Assembly (NCBI GenBank): GCA_030674185.1
Contig: JAPXFY010000013.1
Span: 51,097,567-51,161,566, forward strand
Length of the DNA stretch: 64,000 nt
From: Monoplex corrugatus
Lineage: Eukaryota > Mollusca > Gastropoda > Littorinimorpha > Ranellidae
Direction: 5' to 3'
The position numbers and the translations under genes are program-made. Positions 14,793 to 58,262 of this stretch are shown here, piece after piece (position 1 is the stretch's first letter; each line of letters opens with the position of its first letter). The notes under the pieces are model-generated. The model worked only from the letters and a program-made list of their open reading frames with translations, searched no databases and was not told the DNA's origin.

Positions 14793-15527
14793 CTATCTTC
14801 TTGAATGACTGTCATTGTATCTGTATTTATCACTGCCAGGAGACCGTGAGCGATACTGATGATGGTGATTGTCTCGCCTGTCACCATCTCTGTTTCGCCT
14901 TGGTCTCTCATAATCATGCTCTCTTGATTCTCTCAAGCCTCTGTCTGAATTTCTATAATTCCTAGAATTTTCTCGAGGACCTGACCAATGTGCAGTATCT
15001 GTTGGTCGTTTCATGGGGGTTGCTGTCAACGGCTTTCGAAAAGGTCTATCTCGTCCTCCAAATCGAAGCTGACCTGATTCTTTCTTGCCACCAAAGCCAC
15101 CCCCTAATCGACGAGGAATCCAGTTTTTCAGTGTTCTTTCATGTTCATAGTCAACGAGGATTTCCTTTTCATCAATAGTCATATTCTTTCCATCTGAATA
15201 AGCATGACGAAGGGATTTTTCACTTTCAAACTCAATAAATCCATAACACTTTGAGAATCCAGTCACAATGTCCCTAACCAAACGGTGCTGTCGGATTTTC
15301 CCAAACTGTCGAAATGCTGAGTACAAAGTCTCTTCATCTGTCTTTGGAGAAAGACGGGCTACAAATAAAGTCAAACTGGGATCTCCTTTCACGTGCTTGT
15401 TGGGTTTGTATTTGGCAGACAGTGCACGAGTGATGGCACGATCATGTGGAATTTCATCGGTCCCATCAATGCTCCCTGACAACAGTGGATCGTAGACTTT
15501 GTCTAGGTATGGTGAAAACCCTTCCAT
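14793..15527 (-). CDS. SNRNP35: U11/U12 snRNP 35 kDa protein
   Basis: A component of the U11/U12 di-snRNP that recognises introns of the minor (U12-type) spliceosome in the nucleus. The 244-residue product (human about 246) keeps the family order: an N-terminal YDPL..GSIDGTDE..PHDRA block (residues 12-31), an RRM with RNP2 LFVARL (54-59) and RNP1 KCYGFIEF (93-100), the hallmark IPRRLGGGFGGKKESGQLRF (127-146) and an Arg/Asp/Ser-rich tail. The ATG at 15,527 is chosen because homologues begin here and a strong acceptor (TTTGTGTTTCAG) lies 7 bases upstream; the open frame extends 13 codons further but across that acceptor. A 5' UTR exon must lie at higher coordinates and was not located. The second RNP1 position is Cys instead of the usual Gly. 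A single coding exon is normal for this gene. Confidence 0.93.
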   Translation of the reverse strand: MEGFSPYLDKVYDPLLSGSIDGTDEIPHDRAITRALSAKYKPNKHVKGDPSLTLFVARLSPKTDEETLYSAFRQFGKIRQHRLVRDIVTGFSKCYGFIEFESEKSLRHAYSDGKNMTIDEKEILVDYEHERTLKNWIPRRLGGGFGGKKESGQLRFGGRDRPFRKPLTATPMKRPTDTAHWSGPRENSRNYRNSDRGLRESREHDYERPRRNRDGDRRDNHHHQYRSRSPGSDKYRYNDSHSRR

Positions 15528-15886
15528 TTGGACTGAAACACAAACAAATCTTTTGTCATTCTGCACACAAAAAATATCTCAACATAACAAATCTGACTTG
15601 CTTGTTTCCTTGCAAGTATTCAGTAAAGTTTTGACACATTTTGACAGGGTGCTGCTAAGAAATAGTTATATAATAACATCAGTTTGTATGCAGGGATTCT
15701 AATAAATGCATGATTGTCTTACATTCCGACAGAGTATATTATGAGCTATATAATAATATATGCATTCCTGCCTCCACATATGTGAAAAGAATAGAGCGTT
15801 TATCAAAAGAAAATCACATATAAAGCTACAACTGTGTTATTCTTCAAATGACAATATCCCTTTTCTTCATCAGTTTCCACCACAAA

Positions 15887-33700: not shown

Positions 33701-36700
33701 TTGGCAAAGTTGGAAGGTATGTTGCTATAGTAGCCTTTTACCATTCATGTCTGGAAAAGCAAAAATATGAAAATTCACTTTTCTTTCTCTTTTTCTTGAT
33801 GATGATGATGATAATGATGAATATTGTTCTTCTTGCTATGTTTCAATTTGGAATTTATTCCAGCAGTGCAGACATTGTATTGAGACTAAAACTGGTTGGT
33901 TGGTTTGATTTTGATTAATGTAGCTTTGGTTTTGTATTAAATATTATGTGCTTGTAAACCTGATTATTTGTTGTAAAATCAATTCTCTTGTAAAGTGTTA
34001 ACCTTTGACTCCCGCACCCTATCCACCAGCTGCAAAAACTGAACCCTTTGATTCCCTCACCCTATCCACCAGCTTCCTGCGTGAGGGAGTCAAAGGGTTA
34101 AATTTTTGCAGTTGGTGAATAGGATGCGGGAGTCAAAGGGTTAACAAAGAAGATTGGGAATAGACAAGCACCATTTATGGGACATTTTTTGAGGAAAGGG
34201 GAATTTGGAGCACCAGGTCACAACAGGAAAATTGGAGGGAAAGAGAACACCAGGTAGACCCAGGGAGAAAATGTTGGACAGACTTGCAGGTGACTGAGGA
34301 CAGAGAGGGTTGTAGATGTACTTGAAGCGACGAGGGATAAGTTTGTATGGAGGGCCATGATCGCCGACGCCATGCCGCAGGCATGTGATGATGATGATCT
34401 TAATTAATGCTCCAGTCAGTTTGGTGGTGTCAGTGTTTTATAGGGCCCATTACCCTTCCTCGTTCAAGACTTTGCCTGAGCATAGGATTTTGCTGAGGAT
34501 CAAAAAGTTTGCCAGATAATTGCTGACAGATTTTGATGAAGGACATATTCATTTATTTTTGTGTTTTGGTTTGTTTTCCAGGCAACCTGACATTCATCCA
34601 TTTGCCAACTTGAATTTGCAGCTGAACTTGATGGAAGTGCGGTCAGGTCCAGACTTGGCCAAAATGACTGCAGAAGAACGTTTGGATTTTGGGTAAAAGT
34701 TTCAGTCCACTTAATGACATTTTTTTTTACTACTCAGTCTATATTTTTGTTCATTATTCTCTATTTTATGACCTTGCCAGTGCACAGGGTTTTGTATAGG
34801 CTCAAGGTGTCTGCCAGATGATGATTGGGTGTAGGGCATATGGCATTGTTGGAGTGCTATGAATCCATCTTCAACTCCAGGCTCCTACCATGATGATTCT
34901 CCCGTGGGAATGCTGGGGACTCTTTCAGTATAAATAGTAACCCCACCTTCTGGAAATTCTCTGCTAGAAATGTCCTCTTTTCTGTCTCTGTTTCTTTCTT
35001 CCTCCTTTGCTTTCTGTCATTTTTTCCTGTCATTTTCTGCCTTGCTGGTCCGTTCACCTGTATGTGTTCGATAGTCTTATGTACTTCCTCTTAGGATTGA
35101 TAATTGGGTACATGTATTAAGTGCATTTTTGGCTCTGGGGAAATGAGATATGCGGAAGCAAGTTTAGGTAATTTAGGCCTGTTTTTATGTATGTTTTAGC
35201 GTCCTTAGTTATGTTGAAATTTGTATTCAGGTATGTTTTTTAGAATGGTCAACGCCGGGAGCATCTCCTTAGATTATGTGCACAAATGCATTGGTATGTG
35301 TACTTAATTTTCTTTTCCTTTCTTCCTGTTGAAGTATTGTGTATGTTTTGAACTGGTTATACCCTTGATATGGCTGTACACAGTCGGCTGGGCTTTAAAC
35401 AACAATAACAGTAACAATAACCATGATTGGTGTTTTGTATGTGTGGGTAGATGGGTAATGTTTTGTATATGTGGGTAGGTGGGTTGTTTTGTACGCGTGG
35501 GAAGGTGGGTTGTTTTGTATGTGTGGGAAGGTGGGTTGTTTTGTATGTGTGGGTAGGTGGGTTGTGTTTTGTATGTGTGGGTAGGTGGGTTGTGTTTTGT
35601 ATGTATGGGTAGGTGGGTTATGTTTTGCATGTGTGGGTAGGTGGGTTATGTTTTGTATGTGTGGGTAGGTGCGTTGTGTTTTGTATAGGTGGGTTGTTTT
35701 GTATGCGTGGGAAGGTGGGTTGTTTTGTATGTGTGGGAAGGTGGGTTGTTTTGTATGTGTGGGAAGGTGGGTTGTTTTGTATGTGTGGGTAGGTGGGTTG
35801 TGTTTTGTATGTGTGGGTAGGTGGGTTGTGTTTTGTATGTGTGGGTAGGTGGGTTATGTTTTGTATGTGTGGGTAGGTGGGTTGTGTTTTGTATGTGTGG
35901 GTAGGTGGGTTATGTTTTGCATGTGTGGGTAGGTGGGTTATGTTTTGTATGTGTGGGTAGGTGGGTTGTGTTTTGTATGTGTGGGTAGGTGGGTTATGTT
36001 TTGTATGTGTGGGTAGGTGGGTTGTTTTGTATGTGTGGATAGGTGGGTTACATTTTGTATGTGTGGATAGGTGGGTTACGTTTTGTATGTGTGGATAGGT
36101 GGGTTATGTTTTGTATGTGTGGATAGGTGGGTTGTGTTTTGTATGTGTGGGTTATGTTTTGTATGTGTGGATAGGTGGGTTATGTTTTGTATGTGTGGAT
36201 AGGTGGGTTGCATTTTGTATGTGTGGGTAGGTGGGTTATGTTTTGTATGTGTGGATAGGTGGGTTGTGTTTTGTATGTGTGGGTTATGTTTTGTATGTGT
36301 GGGTAGGTGGGTTATGTTTTGTATGTGTGGGTAGATGGGTTATGTTTTGTATGTGTGTGTAGGTGGGTTATGTTTTGTATGTGTGGATAGGTGGGTTATG
36401 TTTTATATGTGTGGATAGGTGGGTTGTGTTTTGTATGTGTGTGTAGGTGGGTTATGTTTTATATGTGTGGATAGGTGGGTTGTGTTTTGTATGTGTGGAT
36501 AGGTGGGTTATGTTTTATATGTGTGGATAGGTGGGTTGTGTTTTGTATGTGTGGTAGGTGGGTTATTTTTATATGTGTGGATAGGTGGGTTGTGTTTTGT
36601 ATGTGTGGATAGGTGGGTTATGTTTTGTATGTGTGGATAGGTGGGTTATGTTTTATATGTGTGGATAGGTGGTTATGTTTTGTATGTGTGTGTAGGGGGG

Positions 36701-39700
36701 TTATGTTTTGTATGTGTGGATAGGTGGGTTATGTTTTATATGTGTGGATAGGTGGGTTATGTTTTGTATGTGTGGATAGGTGGGTTGTGTTTAGTATGTG
36801 TGGGTAGGTGGGTTGCGTTTTGTATCTGTGGGTAGGTGGGTTGTGTTTTGTATGTGTGGGTAGGTGGGTTGCGTTTTGTATCTGTGGGTAGGTGGGTTGT
36901 GTTTTGTATGTGTGGGTAGGTGGGTTGCGTTTTGTATCTGTGGGTAGGTGGGTTATGTTTTGTATGTGTGGGTTATGTTTTGTATGTGTGGATAGGTGGG
37001 TTATGTTTTGTATGTGTGGATAGGTGGGTTGCGTTTTGTATGTGTGGGTAGGTGGGTTGCGTTTTGTATGTGTGGGTAGGTGGGTTTTGTTATGTTTTGT
37101 ATGTGTGGGTAGGTGGGTTGTGTTTTGTATGTGTAGTAGTAGATGGGTTATGTTTTGTATGTGTGGGTAGGTGGGTTGTGTTTTGTATGTGTGGGTAGGT
37201 GGGTTGCGTTTTGTATGTGTGGGTAGGTGGGTTATGTTTTGTATGTGTGGATAGGTGGGTTATGTTTTGTATGTGTGGATAGTGGGTTGCATTTTGTATG
37301 TGTGGGTAGGTGGGTTGCATTTTGTATGTGTGGGAAGGTGGGTTTTGTTATGTTTTGAATGTGTGGGGAGATGGGTTATGTTTTGTATGTGTGGGTAGGT
37401 GGGTTGTGTTTTGTATGTGTAGTAGTAGATGGGTTATGCTTTGTATGTGTGGGTAGGTGGGTTGTGTTTTCAATGTAAAGTGAAAACAGATCTGGTGACA
37501 GAACACATCCCTGCCTAATCCCTCTTTGGATTATTTTGGAAAGAGCTTATATCATTTTCTACTCTTATTGCGTATTCCTTATCATTCTTAGATCCTTTAA
37601 ATCAACATGGAGCATTTGTAGTTGGCTGATCAATTCTTTGTGTCTTTCCTGTTCAAAAAACTTTGTGTAATCAGTAAAACATAAATATAAGTGCTTATTC
37701 AACTCAATTGATCTTTCTATGAGAGTTCTTAGGGTGTATATCAAGAGTAAGATTTCCTGATGCACACTGTAAGTGTCTATTTCTTGGGTTTGGTAGACAC
37801 CAAGATAAATTAAGAGAGTAGGCGTAACATACAGTGCTGTCATGTGATGTAATCTCAGTCCTAGATGGATTTCCATAGTGTCATGATCATCATCATGAAA
37901 TAATCGTCTTAGCATCTTGAAAATTTTCCCAGATTCTGCAGCTCTTTGTGTGCTGATCTTGTGATGACTTCAGTATCTATTTCATCTACTGCTTTTATGC
38001 TTGAGATGAATTCAGTGTGCAGTTTTGTGTGTTAGTGGTTCATGGGTATTGTCATTCAAAGACCATGATGGTGGTTTCCTCACCAGAGGAGATCTCCCAT
38101 TTGGTCTGGCCCTGGAAATTAGCAATTACTGTCATTACTGTCATTAGTGTGTGTGCTCAGTAAGTTGAACCAGAACAGGCACTGTTGAACTCCATTCAAA
38201 GTGATTCAGAAGCAGTGCAGGGTCTCCTCTGGTAGGTGGCATAATTACAGCATGACATCACTGGCTCCTATGGGAAACACTAGGACTTTGACTGACTTAA
38301 CTTAGAATTGGTGGGATGTTGGAGAGCCAGAATGAGCATGTGGGATCTACATCACTAAGGCAGTGCAAAATTTGAGACAGCAAGGAAAACAAACAAACAA
38401 ACAAATAAAAAAAAACCAGAAAAGACAGAAAACCAAAAAATTAAAAGATAAAAATTCTCTTGAATGGTTCTTGAGTGATCATGGGTTTATTGAGCGTTGT
38501 CCTTCACAAGTTACATAGCCACAAACAGCCAGGCTGTTGGAAGGCTGTTTGGGATGTAAGATTTGCAGGGCTGATAAGGTTACATACATAAAATGTTAAT
38601 TTGCTTGGTATTCCAATCTGGCATATATTCTTTGTGTTGATAGAAGTTAACTAAATGTTTTCCCCCCTCAGAGATGCCAAAGCTACTTTCAGGATAAATA
38701 GTATCCCCAACTTCTGGAAATTCTGGCTAGAAATTTTTTCTTTTCTGTCACTGTCTTTGTTTCTGTTTTCTCGTTTGCTTTCTGTCATTTCTAAGATTTT
38801 CTGCCTTGCTGGTCCATCCAAATGCATGTTTTCCATAAAGCCTTTCATACTTTCTATTAGGATTGATTATTGGGTACAGGTTTTAACTGCATTTTTGGCT
38901 GTAAGGAAATGTGATGTGCAGAAGCACTTTTAGGTAATTTAGGCCAGGTTTTATATATATATATGTTTTAGTGTTCTAAATCATGTTCATACATTTGTAT
39001 TCAGGTGGGGATTTTTTAACCTCCTCTGGTGATAAATTGGGCGGAATGGTCATTATCCTTAGATTATGTGCGCAAATGCATTAATGTGTTTCCTGAATTT
39101 TCTTTTCCAGGTGATTTGTTTTTTCAGTCAACAAGATGTGTTTTGGGATGGTTCTAGTCATGATTTGGTTCTGTACAGTTGGTTTGGCTTTAAACAATAA
39201 TTAAATCATAATAAGCAAATGTTTACTAAAATTATTCCTTGTTAAGGTGAGTGTTTATTTTGTTGCTTGTTGCTGGCACAGGGAGAAGAAGAGAGAGCGA
39301 GGAAATCAGCTTTTTGCTCGAGGAGACTATTCAGTTTGCATCAATGTGTATTCAAAGTAAGTTCAACCTTGCTGGTGGGGAGAGGGTGTGTGTATATGTG
39401 CGTGTGAGAATGTGTGCTTTTCGCGATCTACTCTTTTTTTGAAGAAAAAGAAGAGGGGAAAAAAGAAACTATTTTATATCAGCCAGTGAGAGGTTGTTTC
39501 TGTCTTGTCTGTCCGCCTGTCTGTGACGAAACTTTGTAGGCAAGATTTTTTCAGTTGTATCTGGATCATTCTCTACCAAAATTGGATTGAAGGTGTTGAA
39601 TGTTGAGGAGTATCTGTGTATTAATTTGGAAGATATGGCACCAAGGTTATGATCATGCGGATTAAAAAGAAAAGCACTAATTTCAGCTTTTCTTGAGGAA

Positions 39701-42735: not shown

Positions 42736-45700
42736 AGAAAACAGTTAAACCTCATGAGGTTCATGTGGATTTTTTATTTGTATTGATTTCAGGCATACAG
42801 TGGCAAAGGAGACCTCAAAAAAGCCATTCACCTGATGCAAAAAAGCCTGGAAACAGACCCAGAGGCAAAGGTGGTGTTTTGATTTTTGCCATCAGATGTT
42901 TTCCCATGTACAAAAGGTTCTATTCTTTCTCATCCACATTGTACAGTTTTCATCCAGGTTACAACTTCAACACAATAATCCCCCATTGGGTTACTGGGGA
43001 CTCTCAGTATAAATAGTATCTGCACCTTCTGGAAACTCTTTGCTGGAAATAACCTTTTTTTCTCACTCTATTTGTTTCTGCCTTGCTTCTTTGCTTTCAG
43101 TCATCTCGTCCTATCCTTTTTTCTTTCTTTTTTTTTTTGTTACCTATATATGCTCTGTAAAACCTTACATAGTTTTTAGAAGGATTGATAATTGGGCACA
43201 TGTATTAACTGCATTTTGGGGCTCTAAGGAAATGTGAAGTGCAGAAGTAGTTTAAGGTCATTTAGGCCACGGGTTTTTTTTTCTGTTTTAGTATCGGTAG
43301 TTTACATTTGTATTCAAGTTTGTTTTTTTAAAATCCCCAGGTGATAAGCAGGGCAGAATAGTCGGTGCTTGAGGCATGTCCTAAGATCACATGCATAAAT
43401 ACATTGATACATGTATTTGATTTTCTTTTCCATTTTTTTTTCCATGGTCAACAAGGTATTGTGTATATTTTGAGATGGTTATGGCCTTGATATGGCTGTG
43501 TGCAGTCAAATGGGTTTCAAACAATATTGATAATACTAATCCCAAAGTTGTGCAAGAAGGATTCATTGCATGCAAAAGTTCCATATGGGTCAACTCGATC
43601 TCACACAGAGTTTCCCACAGTGTCTGCAGGAATCAAACTGCACAGGGCCTCAGCATGTCATACTTCACAGTACAACAACTGTGTCTGCAATTTCTGAATG
43701 TTTGAGAAAGTTTTAATAATGACTGGTAAGAAAAAGTTTGAAAAATCTAGGGCCCATCTTTAACTCTTAAAGCGCTTCATAAAATAAAGTACTGTTTTAA
43801 GAAAGTGTAGTTAAAATCAAGAGACGTTTATCTAAAACTACGTACTCCAGGTTTTGCCTATTTTCTGTACCTATTATTCACCCTACATATATAAACCTAT
43901 ACATTTTTAGAAAGAGGACAGTCTGGAGATAATGAATAACATAAAATAAAATATGTACCTTGTCAGTTGTGGGAGATATCCTTGCTGGTAATAAGCACAA
44001 AATATTTACACAAATTGTCCAAAAACGTTGTCTTGTCTTCAGCACTCTTGAAAACAGTCCAGATGGCAACAAAATCACAAAAAACAGTTATATACAGACA
44101 CATTGTTCACTCCTCTTAGAGGAAAAACAGGTTTTGCAGACTTTCCCCTCCTGGGACGCTTGTGGTAGTCCACAAAACAAGTAGCACACAGGCCAATGTT
44201 GCACGCCGGACACTCGTACACGGAGCGCACACGAGTATCATGTCCAGCAGCACAATTCCTCCTCTTGCCTTTTGCCAGCTTGACTAGTTGATGCCCTCCA
44301 TGTGATGGACCAGCCTCAGGATCAGGTGGGGGTGCTGGGGCCACTTGTAATTGGGCATGAGCCCTGGTAGCTTCAATTTCTGCCCTAGTCCGCCTGTGAC
44401 GCACAACCTTGGGGGGGTGGTAGTCCCCTGCCAGGCTGTGCACCAGAGACATCATAAACTGAAGCTTGGTTTTCTGTGGGGTGTCAGTGGTGTTGAGCTG
44501 GTACAGGATGTAACTGTTCACTGCTGCCCTGCCAAATAGGGAAAAGGCCAGCTTTGTTGACCATTTCATTTTCTTCCTCTCAGCCAGGTAGGCGTAGAGT
44601 TTGGAGTCGCTCATGCCTACTCCTCCCATGGACTTGTTGTAGAGGCTGACAATGTTGGGTCTTCTCACTCTCTGGCCTCTTCTGTTCTGTACCTCTGTGT
44701 ATCCAGCACGGGCAGCAGTGGACAGAAGCACTGGTCTGCTTGCACCATCTTTGTACATGACACAAAGCAGTGGACCTTTCCTTCGCTCAGCAACTTCTTG
44801 GTTCTTGAGTTTTTTCTTCAAACAGGCTTTAGGAAGGCCTTTCCTGTTCACTCTCACAGTTCCTGTTGCTGTAGTCTGCTGAGCATACAGGTCTTGGAAC
44901 AGAACTGGAGAGGAAAAGTAATTGTCCAATCCTAAGTGGTATCCCTGATTGAAGAAGTTGCACTTGTTCAAGAGGCGCATCACGATGGCATAGGTGACAC
45001 CCTGCTCAGCTCCAGCATCATCTGCACAACCTCACACACTGTGCCTTTTAGCCGCCCAACCATAGGTCATGACCTCGGCCCGTGGCGCGCAGCTGATGCC
45101 AGCTGCCAAGCGGGCAGCAGACACACAGTGCTGCTCGGCTTGCTTGGCTCACTCAGCGGGAATAACGCTATGTTCGTAATTTGTGTACCATCGCAAAACT
45201 CCCTTAAAACAACATTCTGTAATGACTTGCAATAGAAAGGGAAAAGAATGAGCTTGAAACCAACACCAAACACAACATAGATAGGGTTACTGCTTTAGTT
45301 ACTGCAGCAGTTCAAAGTTTCATCCACACAAACAAAACAACTTCAAAAAACATATTACTACAATGAATGGGTCGTGTTCCAACACCCTTAACTTAAAACA
45401 TGCACTTATGACAGCACTTCCACGAACAGCAACAGAAAGTACAACCATTTAGCATTCACACCCACGTATCTGTCTGTGGGCAGTATTTTTCTGTGGGCCA
45501 GGAGCAGGGGGGTAATTAACACGCTGCTGTGGGTTTACCAGTGGCAGGCGCGAGGTGGAGTGGTGGGGGTATGTTGGCTTGGCAACCAGCTTATAGTTCA
45601 CGCCTGACACAGGCCTAATTATTGTTTATCAGGTGTGGGGCTACACATCAGTCCCTGGCATCAGTGTTTTGGGAGTTCAATTCTTTACTTTAACTGTCTC

Positions 45701-48700
45701 TGCCGGAGACAACTTACTGTTTATACCGCTGAATTATGATAATAATAAAACTGCTCGACATATTGAAAGCGACCTGGAACAAGTTCTCTTCCGCAAATAA
45801 AAATCAGTTTCTGCTCACGTAGTTAAAACGCAATCAGCAAAATGTAAATCCATGGATATGAGAAAATGATGAGAATAAAAGAAGACTTGTCAAGAGTTAT
45901 TTTCGTGGCTTTGAGGCGACAGGAAGCACACACCGCAACCGAGGTGACACAGTTGTCAACTGTTCTTGCATTAAGACTCGGATTTGCTGGTCTTCTGCAC
46001 GAATTCCACGCACCCGAGCCTTAAGACCATTAACAAAAGCATGAGTCTCTTCACCTCCTTGCTCCCCCAGCAGTCCCAATCCAAATTTCCAGTCTTTCAG
46101 GAATTGAACACAGTGGCACTCTAGCATGTGTTGTTTTGGTGTGATGTTTATATGCGGAAACTTGATTCTGTAGAAATGCATGTATTGTGAAATGTTTTCT
46201 TCTACCGTTTGTATGTCTTCTTCTGTCATGGGTCGTGTATGTGAGATGTGTTTATGTACAGCTGAGAAGTGTGAGTTAAGCTGTTCAAATTTCTCTGCGA
46301 TGTCATGTGCACGCTGGTGAAGTGTGAGGCTGTCTGTCACTTGAAATGTTTTTCTGACTATGCTTTGACAGATGTTTTTTGTGACTTGAGGTTGCAGATA
46401 TTTGTGGCAGTGATTGCCTACAAAGGAACGGCCGTGGTATGCTTGCACAGTGATTTTATTTGCTTTCAGTTCACTATCTAAATTTGATGTGACAGGGCCT
46501 TCACGGAAAGGCAGGTCTGTCAGTGCCTCATTCTTTTCTTCTATTCTGTCATAAAGTTCGTCAATGCAGTCCTGCACCTGCTTCTTCTCCTCCTGTAGTG
46601 TGTGCTTCATTTGCTCATTTTCCCGTTCTAACTGCTGTATTTCTGAGAGCCTTGTCTCGTATGACATCTTCTCTTTTTCATCTTTCTCTATGTCTTGTAG
46701 TGTGTTAACATGCTGTTCGAACACTGTGATGTTTTCATGTCCCGTGTTAATTTCTTCCGCTAGTGCCCTAGCTATGTGTGTGTCTAGCATGTGACACTCC
46801 TGTTCCAACAGATCATGGTGTTTTTTTACTATGCCTAACAAAATGTGAAGGTAGGGAGGAGCGATTTGTGACAAGGATACATTGAAGAGGGGTTTGTGGA
46901 TAACATTATTGTATGCTTTTGCTGTTTTCTTGTCTGCACCATGGTGACAGAACTGTCTGTGATCATGCTTAATGTTTTGCAGCGTTCTTTTGGGAATGTT
47001 TGTTTGCTGAATGTGCGCGTTTTGCATCTGTTTCTTTGAAGTCTTGCACCACAAACAAGGGTGTACTGACTGCGCTCCTGAAATGCCATATATTTTAAGT
47101 AAATAGTCATAATCACCAAAGAAAAAAACACGGACCTGCTTGCCTTTCCATACCATCTTCTCTAAGTTGGCGATTTGCTGTTTGTATGGATAGAGGATAG
47201 TTTTTAGGTTTACCTGTGAATCTTTGCAATTGACCACAGATATGAGGCAAGTATTGCGCTTTGAGTTAGGTTCACTAACATTTGCAACCTGCAGCATAAA
47301 CTTAAAACTACCTCCACCATGGTCTCCGCCGATCTTTATCCATACTTCATTTCTGGGAATTGTATCATCATGCCAAGAGAGCAGATGTTCTTCCTCGTAC
47401 TGGTCTAACAGAGAAGAGACAAACTGAGTAAGGTCAGTGTGTCCCACATAGCCAACAGGCACTTCAATTCTCTCTGAGCCAGTGTCATTGTCAACTAATT
47501 TGTGTTCTACCACTATGTCTCCACAGACTGTTTCACGTTGAAACTGCCTCTCTGCTCGTTCACTCTCCATGACTACTCCTATGCCTTTGAGAAACCGTCT
47601 CTGTGCTCTCTGCCTGCACCAGCTAAGTCCTAAAGTTGTCCTAAGAGCTGACCCATGTTTAGAGGAGATGGTTGGTCTCTTAATGCCTGCCTGATGTAAC
47701 ACCTCCTCCCTCTGTTTTGTGCTGGACTTTTTCAGTTCACTGCTGTGTTGTTTTACCGAATCTTCTTGGGTTTTGCCTGATACATCATGTCTAAACTTTT
47801 CCACTGTTCTGGCTCTCTTTTTTCTCAGAGGAGAAGAAGCTTCTAATGATCTCTTTCTTGGCATCACTATCTTTTTGAGAACGAGAGGCTGACCTTTCGT
47901 TTTGCAGGCAACAGTGGATTTGTCCTGTGACTTATTCATTATCATTTTGGTGATTTGTGTGTGGTATTCTGTTTCTTCTGCAGTGAGTGGAAGAGTCATG
48001 TCCTGAATAGAACGCAAGCTTTGCTTTTGGGCAATAGGAGATGTTGCTGCGTCTGTAACCTGCTGTCTCATAGATGTCTGTGATGGCCCTTCGTTTATGA
48101 CTGTCTTTTCTGGTGTGTACATTTCCTGCCTAATGGGTGATGCATGCGTGTCAATCATGCGAGGCCTTTTTTCTGGTGTGGATGTTACTGGTGGCAGAAA
48201 GACTGGCCCTTCACTAATTGACTCGGGGGCACTTTCTTGCTTTGGCCGACCTCTCTTTTTTCTCACTGGCCTGCCTGCCGTGAACTGCGAGGCAAAATGT
48301 GAACAGACGCTGCATTCACTTTGTAATATGGATGAATTGAAATCAGTCCACAAATGGGATGCACCTTCAATGTCAATCTTGGCATTTTGTAGCGTTGTGG
48401 CAGAGGGTGATTCCACTTCTTTCTTTAAACTCTTCAGTCTTGTGTAACAGGGTCGGCACAGCGTGGTCGAGTGAACATCACATTTGTCTTGCATAATATC
48501 AATATCATGAAACTGCTGTAGCTCTGACTGAACATATTTACACAGATGAACTGCTTTATCAGAGTTGCGTTTTTTTTATCTTCCACCACACACTCTACAA
48601 AGCGAGTTTAGTCTGTCACTATGTAGTCTTTCACTGTGTTCCTCCATCATCAGAGCTGAAGTGCCAGTATGACTATAAATGCTAGACAAACACAAATGTC

Positions 48701-51635
48701 AGTTGCTAACAGTAGTCTAAAAGGGTAACCAAGTAAGTTAGATAAAGAACACAAAGCCGCCTTACAGTCACATCACAGAGTACACATTCCTAAAGTCTTT
48801 GGTCACATACACTTCACTGAACCACTTGCTCACGGTTGCAGCACATCACCATTCCAAAGTCAAATATCAAAGGAACAAAAAAAACTGTCTCAGCATCACC
48901 TCCACCAATGGTCTGAATAAGCATTGCAAGTTATCACAGCAGAAGTTGAAAGTCACAGGAAATGAAACACGCTCATAAAAGCACATTATAAACATGTAAA
49001 CACACTAACACTCCACCACTGCTAACAGAGAACAAAGAGGGGTACCGTGCCTACGGCGCGCGAAGCCTAATCGCCTGCAGGGGAGGGGGGAGGAATGTCT
49101 GGCACTGGGAGAGATAACACCTGGTGGTGGGCTAGCATCTAAAGAGCACTCTTTATCGCCTGGCTGTACAGCAGTGTCTGGTTTGTGCCTTCCTCTGAAG
49201 ACTTCAAAGTTGCTGGTGTAGCCATTCTTGCTGTCTGAAAGGCACCACAGCTTGATGCCAAAGCGAGCATGGCGCTTGTTTGGCATGTACATGCGCAGAT
49301 GTGGAGTTTTCCCCTTGAAGCCAACCATGCTTTCGTCAATCGAAATGTTGACATCAGGGTTGTAGTGGTGATGAAAGGCCCACTGCAATGTATCAATGAG
49401 AGGCTGGACCTTGTAGAGCTGGTAATTTGGGTCCTGCCTATCTGGCATGGCTGCAATATCTGCAAAATGCAGGAATTTCAACATAAATTGAAAGCGGTCC
49501 CGCGAGAAATGCTCCAGGAAAAAGGGTGTACTCATGCAAGGTTTGAGGAGTCCCAGTAAGAACTTAGGTTTGACTTTTTGATCAGTCCCATGTTGAAAAC
49601 TATTCCCAGAAAAGCCCTAAATTCCTCTACTGTTGTCCTCCCTTGCTTGATCCAGAGGTGCACCCTTGATCTGGGTTTTTCTTGCAGGTACTGCTGGTGT
49701 GAAGCCACCCACTGGTCAGCATAACGGTTGGTTTCTGTTACAATTGTATCAAGAAACCTATCAGGAAAAAATAAGTTCAGATACTCAGTGGGACTGGAAT
49801 CAGGAGCAGGGGCATGTTTTGGGCCATGGTGAGCAGTAAAAGTCACAGGATCAGGGCCAGGATCATCCCCTGTGATGGGCGTCCACACACCTCCAACAGC
49901 AGGCACGCCCCCTCCAGTGGCTCCAGTCTCACCTTCACTGTCAGTGTCCCTTCGTCAGTCTCCCACTCTGTAACAATAAAAACAAAACCTAAACTGAATA
50001 AATTTTATCTAAATAAAGTCTTAGAATAAACAATAATCAAGCAACAGTGTATCAGCTATCGTTACTGTGTACAATGAACAGTAAAACTTGAGGGGTGACA
50101 CGAACACCCATTGTAAACAGCCACTCAGTTTTCCATAGCAGATGACATAGCACAATGACACAGCAGAATACTACAACAGTACACTGAACTACTTTCTCAT
50201 TAGCGAAGCTGAATAAAGTTTCCACCTACCTTCCAAAGGTTCCTCACTGTCAGTGTCGGTAACATACTCTTCACTTGTCTCACCGTCATGCCCACCAACA
50301 AACTCTTCAGGATCGCTTTCAATATCACTCATTTTTACAAAAAAATTCTGCGCCAAACTGCGTACTTTGAATTGACAGCGTCAGCCGAACACACAGGAAG
50401 TGGTGGGCAATGGAAACGAGGCTATTCGGAAGGTTTCTGAATATTACCGAGCAAGGTTTTGTTGGTACGGTCAACCGGCCCCTCGAGGGGCCCATTGCGC
50501 TTTACGGGTTAATGTCTCCTTCTCCATTTAAATAACTATAACTGGGACACTATTAACATTAGAGATTTGATCTCAACACCATTGGAAGGAGCATTTCTTG
50601 TATTTTTCAGTGCTTTGAATATCTTTATACCATGACAAAGCGCCTTTGTGCCCCCTTTTGTAAGAACAGGTTACATATTCTTGAAATCTACAATCATTCA
50701 AAATGAAGTTTGTTTGCTTGTTTGTTTGTTTATATGTTGTTTGTTGTTGTCTGTAATTGACACAGGCCAGTATAGTATAGCAGTAGTAAGTTAAAGTCAG
50801 TAGTCACATTATAGCCAAGACTCAGACTCAAACAAAATCTGGTTTAAGATGTATCCATCATGCTTAAGCAGTTCCATACAGGCTCCAGAATCCTACACGC
50901 TAGCAAGGTCTTGAAATGGAAGTTGGCAGGCAGGGAGTTGAGTTTTGATTGAAAGACAAAGCTGACAACAGCAAAAATGATTGGGGCATTAACAAGAGCA
51001 GCAGACAAGCCAGTTTTGATGTTAGGGGATGAAATTGAACTCAGGATTTTCAAAATGTTGGTGATCGTTTTCAGGTAGTGCACAAGTGATATCTTTATCA
51101 AAATGTTGGTAATCTTTTTCAGATTGTGCACAAGTAATATTTTGGTGATTGTTTTCAGGTAGTGCATAAGGAGATAGCCCAGCTGAAGAGCAGAATGAAA
51201 GACGCTATACAGTCAGAGAAAGCCATGTATAAAAAGATGTTTGGGTTTATGGCATCTGATTCAGCAGCAGCAAAGAATTCAGGGGCTTCATCTAATGCCA
51301 GCAGTAGTGTAAGTGTGTGTTGTGCACATTTTTTCTTCTTATTATGAACTTGTGTTCTGTAGGCAACATCTTTTGTTGTTGTCTTTGTTTAAAATGGACT
51401 TGTTCTTTTGCATTGGCATATACACACAATCGTGCATGCATGCACACATGCGCGTGCACACACACACAGGCAAACACACACACACACACACACATGTACA
51501 CACACACACACACACATTTTCATTATCTCTCGCATGCACTCTGTCTCTCTCTCCTCTCTCTCTGTCTCTCTCTCTCTCTCTCTCTCACTCTCTGTCTCTC
51601 TCACCCTCTCACTCTTCTCTCACTCTCTCTCTCTC

Positions 51636-56829: not shown

Positions 56830-58143
56830 TCATTTGTTTACAACAGTGATGCACTCCACCAATGACATGGAATCGGCACACTGCTTGCAAACAATCACGG
56901 TGTGTTCTTTGCACACCCATGAGCAGCATGAGAAGCAAGACTTTCGGGATTTCCGATCAAGCTTCCAGCTGCATGAGCCACAGCGACCTTGACTCTGTTT
57001 TGGCTCTTTCTGCCCAATTTGTTTGCTGGTAGAAGGCCTCTGTGCTGATGCCGGTCTTTTTCTCTTGCCACCAGCACGGGCAATTTGTCGTTGGTCCAGT
57101 GAAGTTGCTACCTTCTGTTGAAGGTGTTGAACGTACATCTCCACTGTGTTTTTCAGGAGCTTTGGCATGTTCCTTGCACAAAGTCTCCTCTTCATATGGT
57201 CAAGTGACAGCTGTTCAGCGATCCGAAGGATGAACTGAGGCCTGGCGTCCTTTTTGGAAAGTAGATGGCCTGGAAACTTGATGCTCCACACAACACGGGC
57301 AGCAATGGTGCTGAGATCCACCGTGTTGTAAAAGAGCACCATTGGCCATCGTTTAGTGATGCGTTTGGTGGAATACGCATGGGCCATCTGATCAACAGAA
57401 TCAACTGCCCCTTTTGTTGAGTTGTAGAAGCGAACGATGTCTGGCTTCTTCTTTGGGGCGTCAGGAGCTACTGCACAGTCATGGTGCATTGTGCTCATGA
57501 CTACAACGTTTTTGTTTGCTTTCGTCTGATAGTTGACGATGGTGGTTTTGTCCTGAAAGAGGAAGGATGACGCATGCAGCTGCAGCCCTCTTTTGTTTTT
57601 GAAGGACTCAGGAAGAAATCGTTTGTTGGCGCGCACAGTACCAACAAACGTCAGCCCATTGTTCTGAAGACCATCAGCCAGCTCCTTGTCAGTGAAGAAA
57701 TTGTCAGTGGTGACATTTCTCCCAGTGTTGAAGAAAGGAGCTGACAGGCGGAGGGCAACATTTCTCCCCAAGTTGACTTGTCTGTCAGCACCCAGTGGTC
57801 GCCCCAGATAGGGCTCTGCGACAAGGGGGAAATTGTTTTCAGTATCCGCTGCCCAAAAAATTTTTATTCCATACTTGTCTGGCTTGGAAGGCAGGTACTG
57901 AATGAAGGAACATCTGCCACGGAATGGGACAAGTTGTTCATCAATGGTGATGAAAGGGCCAGGGATGTAGTGGTCACTCAGGTTCTTAGTAAAGTCATCC
58001 CAAAAATCTCTGAAAGGAGCGAAAACATCTCGGCTCCTTCTGGCACTCCTGGTCTCTTTGTCATCGAACCTCAAAAAGTTCAGCAACTGCAAAAAACGGT
58101 TGCGGCTGAAGGATGCACGAACAAACCCACCACAATTTTGCAC
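56830..58143 (-). pseudogene. piggyBac transposase, N-terminally truncated
   Basis: A 437-codon open frame of a PGBD/DDE_Tnp_1_7 transposase, the enzyme that excises and inserts TTAA-flanked elements. All three catalytic Asp are present: ITIDEQLVPFRGR (D68), NVTTDNFFTDKEL (D147) and KGAVDSVDQM (D248, with D251). RWPMVLFYN follows, and the end is a Cys-rich zinc module (CGSCSWKL...CFSCCSWVC...CKQC). The first codons (SRNRFLQLLNFLRFDD) already correspond to the middle of the N-terminal domain of relatives. The frame is open about eight codons further upstream (HPRLTDYC..) before a TAG, and no ATG is available, so 100 or more residues are lost or lie in an unseen exon. The GTG at 58,143 is not a credible start. 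Confidence 0.85.
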
Positions 58144-58262
58144 ACGGCAGTAGTCTGTGAGTCTTGGATGATGCTACTACACTGTCTGGGAACACATGAG
58201 TCAGTTCTGTGCATTTGCTGTAACAACGTGTACACACTTAGTGATGTGTGCAGTCTTTGTTC

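Follow-up and report, generated by a model that had tools for sequence, protein, structure and literature searches.

In this study, we analyzed a stretch of 64,000 nucleotides (hereafter the window) from the ranellid gastropod Monoplex corrugatus (GenBank assembly GCA_030674185.1, contig JAPXFY010000013.1, positions 51,097,567 to 51,161,566 of the forward strand) and found a real and time-ordered nest of three levels, in which a Chapaev element lies within a broken piggyBac transposase gene, which in turn lies within an intron of the FKBP8 gene. It is most likely (probability about 95%) that the piggyBac transposon entered the FKBP8 intron first and that its transposase gene was invaded much later by a Chapaev transposon of 4,152 bp (N-RAG-TP/Chapa type), with duplication of CAGA. 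Both the nesting and the order are supported by empty paralogous sites, independently found ends and sequence divergence, as obtained by searching the whole assembly (3.02 Gb, 7,621 contigs). The features concerned are as follows (positions are those of the window, and exons are numbered by our own count).

42,793-42,870, plus strand: FKBP8 exon 8, TPR segment AYSGKGDLKKAIHLMQKSLETDPEAK (frame, splice sites; stitched exons match FKBP8)
42,871-51,158, plus strand: FKBP8 intron with the nested transposons (exon ends, splice sites)
51,159-51,308, plus strand: FKBP8 exon 9, VVHKEIAQLKSRMKDAIQSEKAMYKKMFG... (frame, splice sites; stitched exons match FKBP8)
43,760-50,512, minus strand: piggyBac transposon including its TTAA duplications (ends common to paralogues; Pfam DDE_Tnp_1_7)
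49,177-50,332, minus strand: piggyBac transposase gene, 5' part, with an intron inferred from frames (Pfam, frames, paralogue comparison)
44,075-45,020, minus strand: piggyBac transposase gene, 3' part (the Pfam profile resumes here; closest paralogue matches start at residue 4)
45,025-49,176, minus strand: inserted Chapaev (N-RAG-TP/Chapa-type) transposon, 4,152 bp, ends CAC...GTG (genome copies, empty sites)
49,177-49,180, minus strand: target site duplication CAGA (TCTG on the plus strand) at the 5' end of the element (copy comparison, empty sites)
45,021-45,024, minus strand: target site duplication CAGA (TCTG on the plus strand) at the 3' end of the element (copy comparison, empty sites)
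45,897-48,575, minus strand: Chapaev transposase frame, 892 codons, core open, with a nonsense codon at about 48,577 just before it (frames, Pfam, copies)

Ends, target site and divergence of the inner element

The protein of the inner element matched at least 59 places in the genome, and 30 loci were fetched for comparison. Near-identical copies at unrelated sites have the stretch from 49,176 to 45,025 in common, and beyond it only chance extensions of a few bases were found. When the initial 150 bp of the element were searched for in the genome, 17/17 matches were full length, and with its last 200 bp all 15 reached 45,025. Perfect 4-bp target duplications flank 14 of the 15 two-ended copies, including seven of the seven complete copies in the fetched loci (CAGA, CTTA, ACAC, CAGA, GTAA, AGAT and TGGA) and seven of eight further ones. 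Three copies (L013, L017 and L018) have internal tandem duplications in their coding part, which are many-fold in L013 (units of ~63 and ~43 bp).

The predicted empty piggyBac site, in which 49,177-49,476 is joined to 44,725-45,020 (596 bp), was found uninterrupted in 20 piggyBac paralogues among 30 loci (87-99% identity), 13 of them gap-free over all 596 bp. The other 10 loci were the window itself and nine relatives of 67-73% identity, which aligned too loosely for the site to be judged. Eighteen of these 20 uninterrupted paralogues retain CAGA.

The inner element differs from its own family majority at 5/4,152 sites (0.12%) and the surrounding piggyBac at 58/2,543 (2.3%), a figure about 19 times higher that could be inflated by subfamily structure. 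The former value is based on 13 copies of the 30 loci (match of at least 3,500 bp at >90%), whose median pairwise difference is 0.22%. For piggyBac, 18 paralogues were used per part (from L032-L053, match of at least 1,200 bp at >90%), with 36 differences from the majority among 1,288 sites of the 5' part and 22 among 1,255 of the 3' part. If divergence is read as age, the inner element would be much the younger of the two; regardless of these figures, the nesting together with the empty sites is enough to set the order. The chronology of the original prediction, which had been made from the sequence alone and placed piggyBac first and the inner element second, was supported by the empty sites, the ends and the divergence.

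The piggyBac transposon and the FKBP8 host gene

The TTAA duplications of piggyBac lie at 43,760-43,763 and 50,509-50,512, where its ends had been predicted before, and these ends recur in paralogues. The G(G/A)GTTAA end of the window copy is seen in 13 of 19 alignments of paralogues on the 3' side (identity of at least 85%), and on the 5' side the exact start TTAACCCGTAAAG was found in 9 of 16 paralogues with the subterminal motif (22 loci scanned). The TTAA duplications and the DDE_Tnp_1_7 transposase are the same as in other piggyBac elements, whereas the window copy is broken and has one subterminal repeat unit instead of the two seen in the 16 paralogues.

The Pfam match of the split transposase to DDE_Tnp_1_7 falls into three pieces; upstream of the insert it ends at residue 148 (~49,173, profile position 183), and downstream it resumes at profile position 185. 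The original prediction was right that a split piggyBac transposase lies in the FKBP8 intron, but the extents of its parts had to be corrected to 49,177-50,332 and 44,075-45,020, and two 1-bp deletions in the 5' part had been missed. These deletions, near 49,951 and 49,542, are private to the window copy (absent from all 18 paralogues compared), and therefore removal of the insert would still not give the piggyBac transposase a single open frame. Another piggyBac-like transposase frame, different from the first and 447 codons long, is present at 56,830-58,173 of the window on the minus strand (DDE_Tnp_1_7, E 9e-52).

To identify the host gene, exons chosen by eye within 30.3-51.3 kb were stitched to 264 residues. 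The best natural protein in PDB was FKBP8 (5mgx_E, E 6.9e-54, a single stretch over residues 3-262), with FKBP4 behind it (E 2.2e-41); two engineered TPR proteins scored higher because of their TPR repeats. Pfam gave FKBP_C (3.3e-10) plus TPRs. Judging from this order of domains, an FKBP domain and then TPRs, and from the best natural match, the predicted host gene is FKBP8. A shorter stitch of four exons (239 residues) gave 635 candidates in a large protein database, none of them significant. Exons 8 and 9, which flank the nested intron, are both open in frame, in line with the earlier claim that they are intact.

A further candidate exon at ~52.83 kb encodes a hydrophobic tail, which we take to resemble the FKBP8 anchor. 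The 3' splice-site stretch of the intron is present in three imperfect tandem copies (51,047-51,178), only the last of which is joined to exon 9, and an interspersed repeat with at least 39 further partial matches (72-75% identity) occupies 42,972-43,540 of the same intron. Among the genome matches listed for an 889-bp intron flank, the window itself was the one full match, and no second allele or paralogous FKBP8 intron with an empty site was found.

Identity of the inner element

RAG1 is the vertebrate antibody-recombination protein, and CAC ends like those of the inner element are also found in Transib. N-RAG-TP of Aplysia, reportedly described by Panchin and Moroz in 2008, is said to be a molluscan transposon that codes for a RAG1 N-terminal-like protein. 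Excerpts of PMC8355894 present N-RAG-TP as composed entirely of RAG1 N-terminal-like sequence and give a 5-bp target duplication for Transib and RAGL, and excerpts of PMC7204232 ascribe to RAGL a convergent RAG2-like gene and RAG1-like N-terminal zinc motifs. For Chapaev, excerpts of PMC4079192 list CAC...GTG termini, 3- to 4-bp target duplications, a DDE triad and the motifs C(2)C, LH and H(4)H, and according to those of PMC4411706 a Chapa zinc domain occurs in both Chapaev and RAG1, with a RING after it in two subgroups of the former.

The 892-codon transposase frame matches DUF1280 (Pfam, 6.6e-16), and its best-scoring organism-named relative is from Littorina saxatilis (57% identity). We compared it in a protein alignment of 56 rows, namely four frames of this genome (L005 standing for the window family) and 52 of 68 homologues, mostly chosen by length. 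A candidate catalytic triad consists of D443 (56 rows), D513 (55) and E867 (52, with four gaps) in L005 numbering. Other conserved columns are C532 (56) and C535 (55), L601 and H602 (56 each), and H841 (53, with three gaps) and H846 (52, with four gaps), which by their spacing would fit the Chapaev motifs C(2)C, LH and H(4)H, respectively. Nearer the N-terminus are three CxxC pairs, whose cysteines were counted among the rows with a residue at each position: C18 (30/30) and C21 (28/33), C65 (31/34) and C68 (32/33), and C113 (37/37) and C116 (34/36).

A profile of the family matched RAG1 chains in PDB (E 9.8e-11, 2.4e-10 and 3.7e-10); the third of these matches spans just the N-terminal zinc region. 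With the same kind of comparison, no significant match to RAG1 was found for the transposase core, in which the C-terminal stretch around E867 aligns in order at -2.1 bits, a score that is no evidence. When single rows were searched with Pfam, RAG1_imp_bd was detected in 13 of the 56 and a RING model in six (E<=0.01), the window family being without RAG1_imp_bd; a sister frame had a RAG1 match below the cut-off (0.17), and some Hydra relatives are annotated with RING and DUF1280 together. As far as these profiles tell, the likeness to RAG1 appears to be confined to the N-terminal part of the transposase. Thus, the kind of element named in the original prediction, N-RAG-TP-like, could be retained together with its RAG1-like N-terminal zinc region and Chapaev hallmarks, but the description as RAG1-like does not extend to the catalytic core.

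Given its CAC...GTG ends, 4-bp duplications, DDE triad, C(2)C/LH/H(4)H motifs and RAG1-like N-terminal zinc region, the inner element is best filed as a Chapaev of the N-RAG-TP/Chapa type, Aplysia N-RAG-TP being compared by description only. It has in common with Chapaev (CMC group) the termini, the 4-bp duplication, the triad, the motifs and a Chapa-type N-terminal zinc region, as these are given in excerpts of PMC4079192 and PMC4411706, and differs in that its two ends are nearly unlike beyond CAC; the termini 5'-CAC...GTG-3' are present both in its own family and in sister families. With N-RAG-TP it shares being a molluscan transposon with a RAG1 N-terminal-like protein, but its frame also has a DDE-type core, in contrast to the wholly N-terminal-like composition described in excerpts of PMC8355894. 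No report of the inner element was found among the matches listed in the open-access PMC literature on N-RAG-TP, Chapaev, the Chapa domain and molluscs.

We also considered that the insert might belong to the RAG-like (RAG1L/RAG2L) or Transib transposons instead of Chapaev, since its N-terminal zinc region is RAG1-like and CAC ends occur in Transib too. This is very improbable, and the assignment was rejected, because the duplications are of 4 bp and not 5 bp, the core has no significant match to RAG1, and a second gene is lacking: besides the transposase, the frames of at least 100 codons wholly inside 45,025-49,176 (108 and 146 codons) both overlap it, and no RAG2-like gene is among them, shorter exons not having been searched for. 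In addition, the C(2)C, LH and H(4)H columns of Chapaev are conserved. What the element shares with RAGL is the set of RAG1-like N-terminal zinc motifs, as far as excerpts of PMC7204232 describe them.

Proposed course of events

Two of the five differences between the window copy and its family majority are shared with other copies. One of these (at 48,577, in 4 of 13 copies) is the nonsense codon, which immediately follows the leading CxxC pair of the zinc region. As four copies at different sites carry it, it is probably older than their insertions. Mobilisation of the window copy in trans is probably the simplest reading; alternatively, translation may begin at a downstream start.

Under the proposed scheme, a TTAA in the FKBP8 intron would have been the target site of piggyBac, which would have diverged in place; it is now 2.3% from its family majority and has two private deletions. 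Much later than the piggyBac insertion, the Chapaev element would have entered the piggyBac transposase gene by a cut-and-paste reaction, in which a DDE transposase whose N-terminal zinc region is RAG1-like would bind the CAC...GTG ends and excise the element; this would then be joined to a 4-bp staggered cut, and gap repair would leave CAGA duplicated. The window copy probably arrived already defective and was moved by the transposase of another copy, unless translation starts downstream.

Conflicting observations and alternative explanations

Several observations weigh against the reading given above. A copy of the inner element at C24:21.58 Mb (L019 and L023) is flanked by TGGC and GCCA, which are reverse complements and not a direct repeat; it is perhaps a rearranged copy. 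Two of the 17 5' ends (C24:11.36 Mb and C19:12.63 Mb) had no 3' match by a like search and were left out of the counts of target duplications. For piggyBac, 6 of the 19 paralogue alignments end otherwise or break off on the 3' side, and 7 of the 16 paralogues differ or break off on the 5' side. The window frame alone has no RAG1 Pfam match (E<=0.1) and neither does the longer L005 frame (E<=1), so that the proposed link to RAG1 rests on the family profile. Finally, the 3' end of the window family, unlike those of its sisters, barely matches the 5' end beyond CAC.

The sisters are several other Chapaev families of this genome, which match at 45-60% protein identity and many of whose frames are open over >900 codons. 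Twelve sister loci were examined with end patterns picked after a first look at sister ends; both ends were recognised in 10, nine of which have perfect 4-bp duplications (that of L015 is mismatched, and L020 and L028 gave no end pair). Sister families have like ends, such as CACGGCTGT at both or CACGGCTGT together with CACTGCTGT. In the window family, by contrast, one end reads CACTGCTGTACAG and the other CACAACCTCACACACTGTGCC, and 12 bp inside the latter is a CACTG similar to the former. It is conceivable, although rather doubtful, that the family spread with a shifted 3' terminus, 12 bp outside the sister-like (CACTG...) end position, a chance flanking CAC having been used and then inherited by later copies; these ends are only suggestive of such a shift.

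Multi-copy repeats are prone to misassembly, and the nesting might be regarded as an assembly artefact. This is very improbable, however, as the target duplication is present at both inner junctions, the piggyBac sequence on both sides has many differences from the majority, with two deletions in no other compared copy, and the contig is 90 Mb long.

The original prediction had placed a 4,114-bp insert at 45,020-49,133 between 6-bp GATGCT duplications, whose use keeps a continuous frame (SLDA/GAEQG, the stroke marking the junction). GATGCT is indeed found near both junctions.

45,014-45,019, minus strand: GATGCT of the piggyBac gene itself (in 19/20 uninterrupted paralogues)
49,134-49,139, minus strand: GATGCT inside the inner element (within the 5' end stretch seen at 17/17 places)

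GATGCT is thus also present in uninterrupted paralogues, and therefore one copy is piggyBac's own and the other is in the element by coincidence (intact in 12 of 14 element copies compared, altered in L004 and L011). The stretch of 43 bp to the right of 49,133 is included in all 17 matched 5' ends and absent from the 20 uninterrupted piggyBac paralogues, and the Pfam piggyBac match stops at ~49,173. When 100-bp stretches around the two supposed ends were shuffled, 75% of trials gave a shared 6-mer; random position pairs in the window had one in 88% of cases, and a frame-keeping one in 55%, so that a repeat of this kind is expected by chance. Other copies of the insert (17/17 5' ends and 15/15 3' ends) fit 49,176/45,025 and not 45,020/49,133, so that the predicted insert had lost 43 bp of the element on the right and taken 5 bp too many on the left. 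Copies ending elsewhere and GATGCT in uninterrupted piggyBac were the two findings that the original prediction had named as refuting it, and both were made, against its ends and its repeat. The corrected empty site reads GRHKPD/DAGAEQG, and the piggyBac frame is broken by the 1-bp deletions anyway. The empty piggyBac sites, the 5' ends and the chance 6-mer test leave the GATGCT duplication hardly any probability, and it was rejected in favor of CAGA.

Other features of the window

Minisatellite-like arrays encoding PTYPHIQN/THLPTHTK repeats lie at 35,304-37,259 on the minus strand. An open frame of 261 codons at 14,793-15,578 (minus strand) contains an RNA recognition motif (RRM_1, 4.2e-16) and presumably resembles the U11/U12 35-kDa snRNP protein. 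A scan of the window with Rfam gave 0 matches.

Implications

The nesting itself is everyday transposon biology and ordinary in kind. What it offers is a clean and relatively dated case of a Chapaev family that was active recently and whose transposase has a RAG1-like N-terminus. The 17 places with a 5' end, a window copy only 0.12% from its majority and sister families with open frames provide material on the role in transposition of the N-terminal region shared with RAG1. If the 3' end of the window family was in fact shifted, transposases with RAG1-like N-termini would tolerate very unlike ends, which would bear on the origin of unequal recombination signals.

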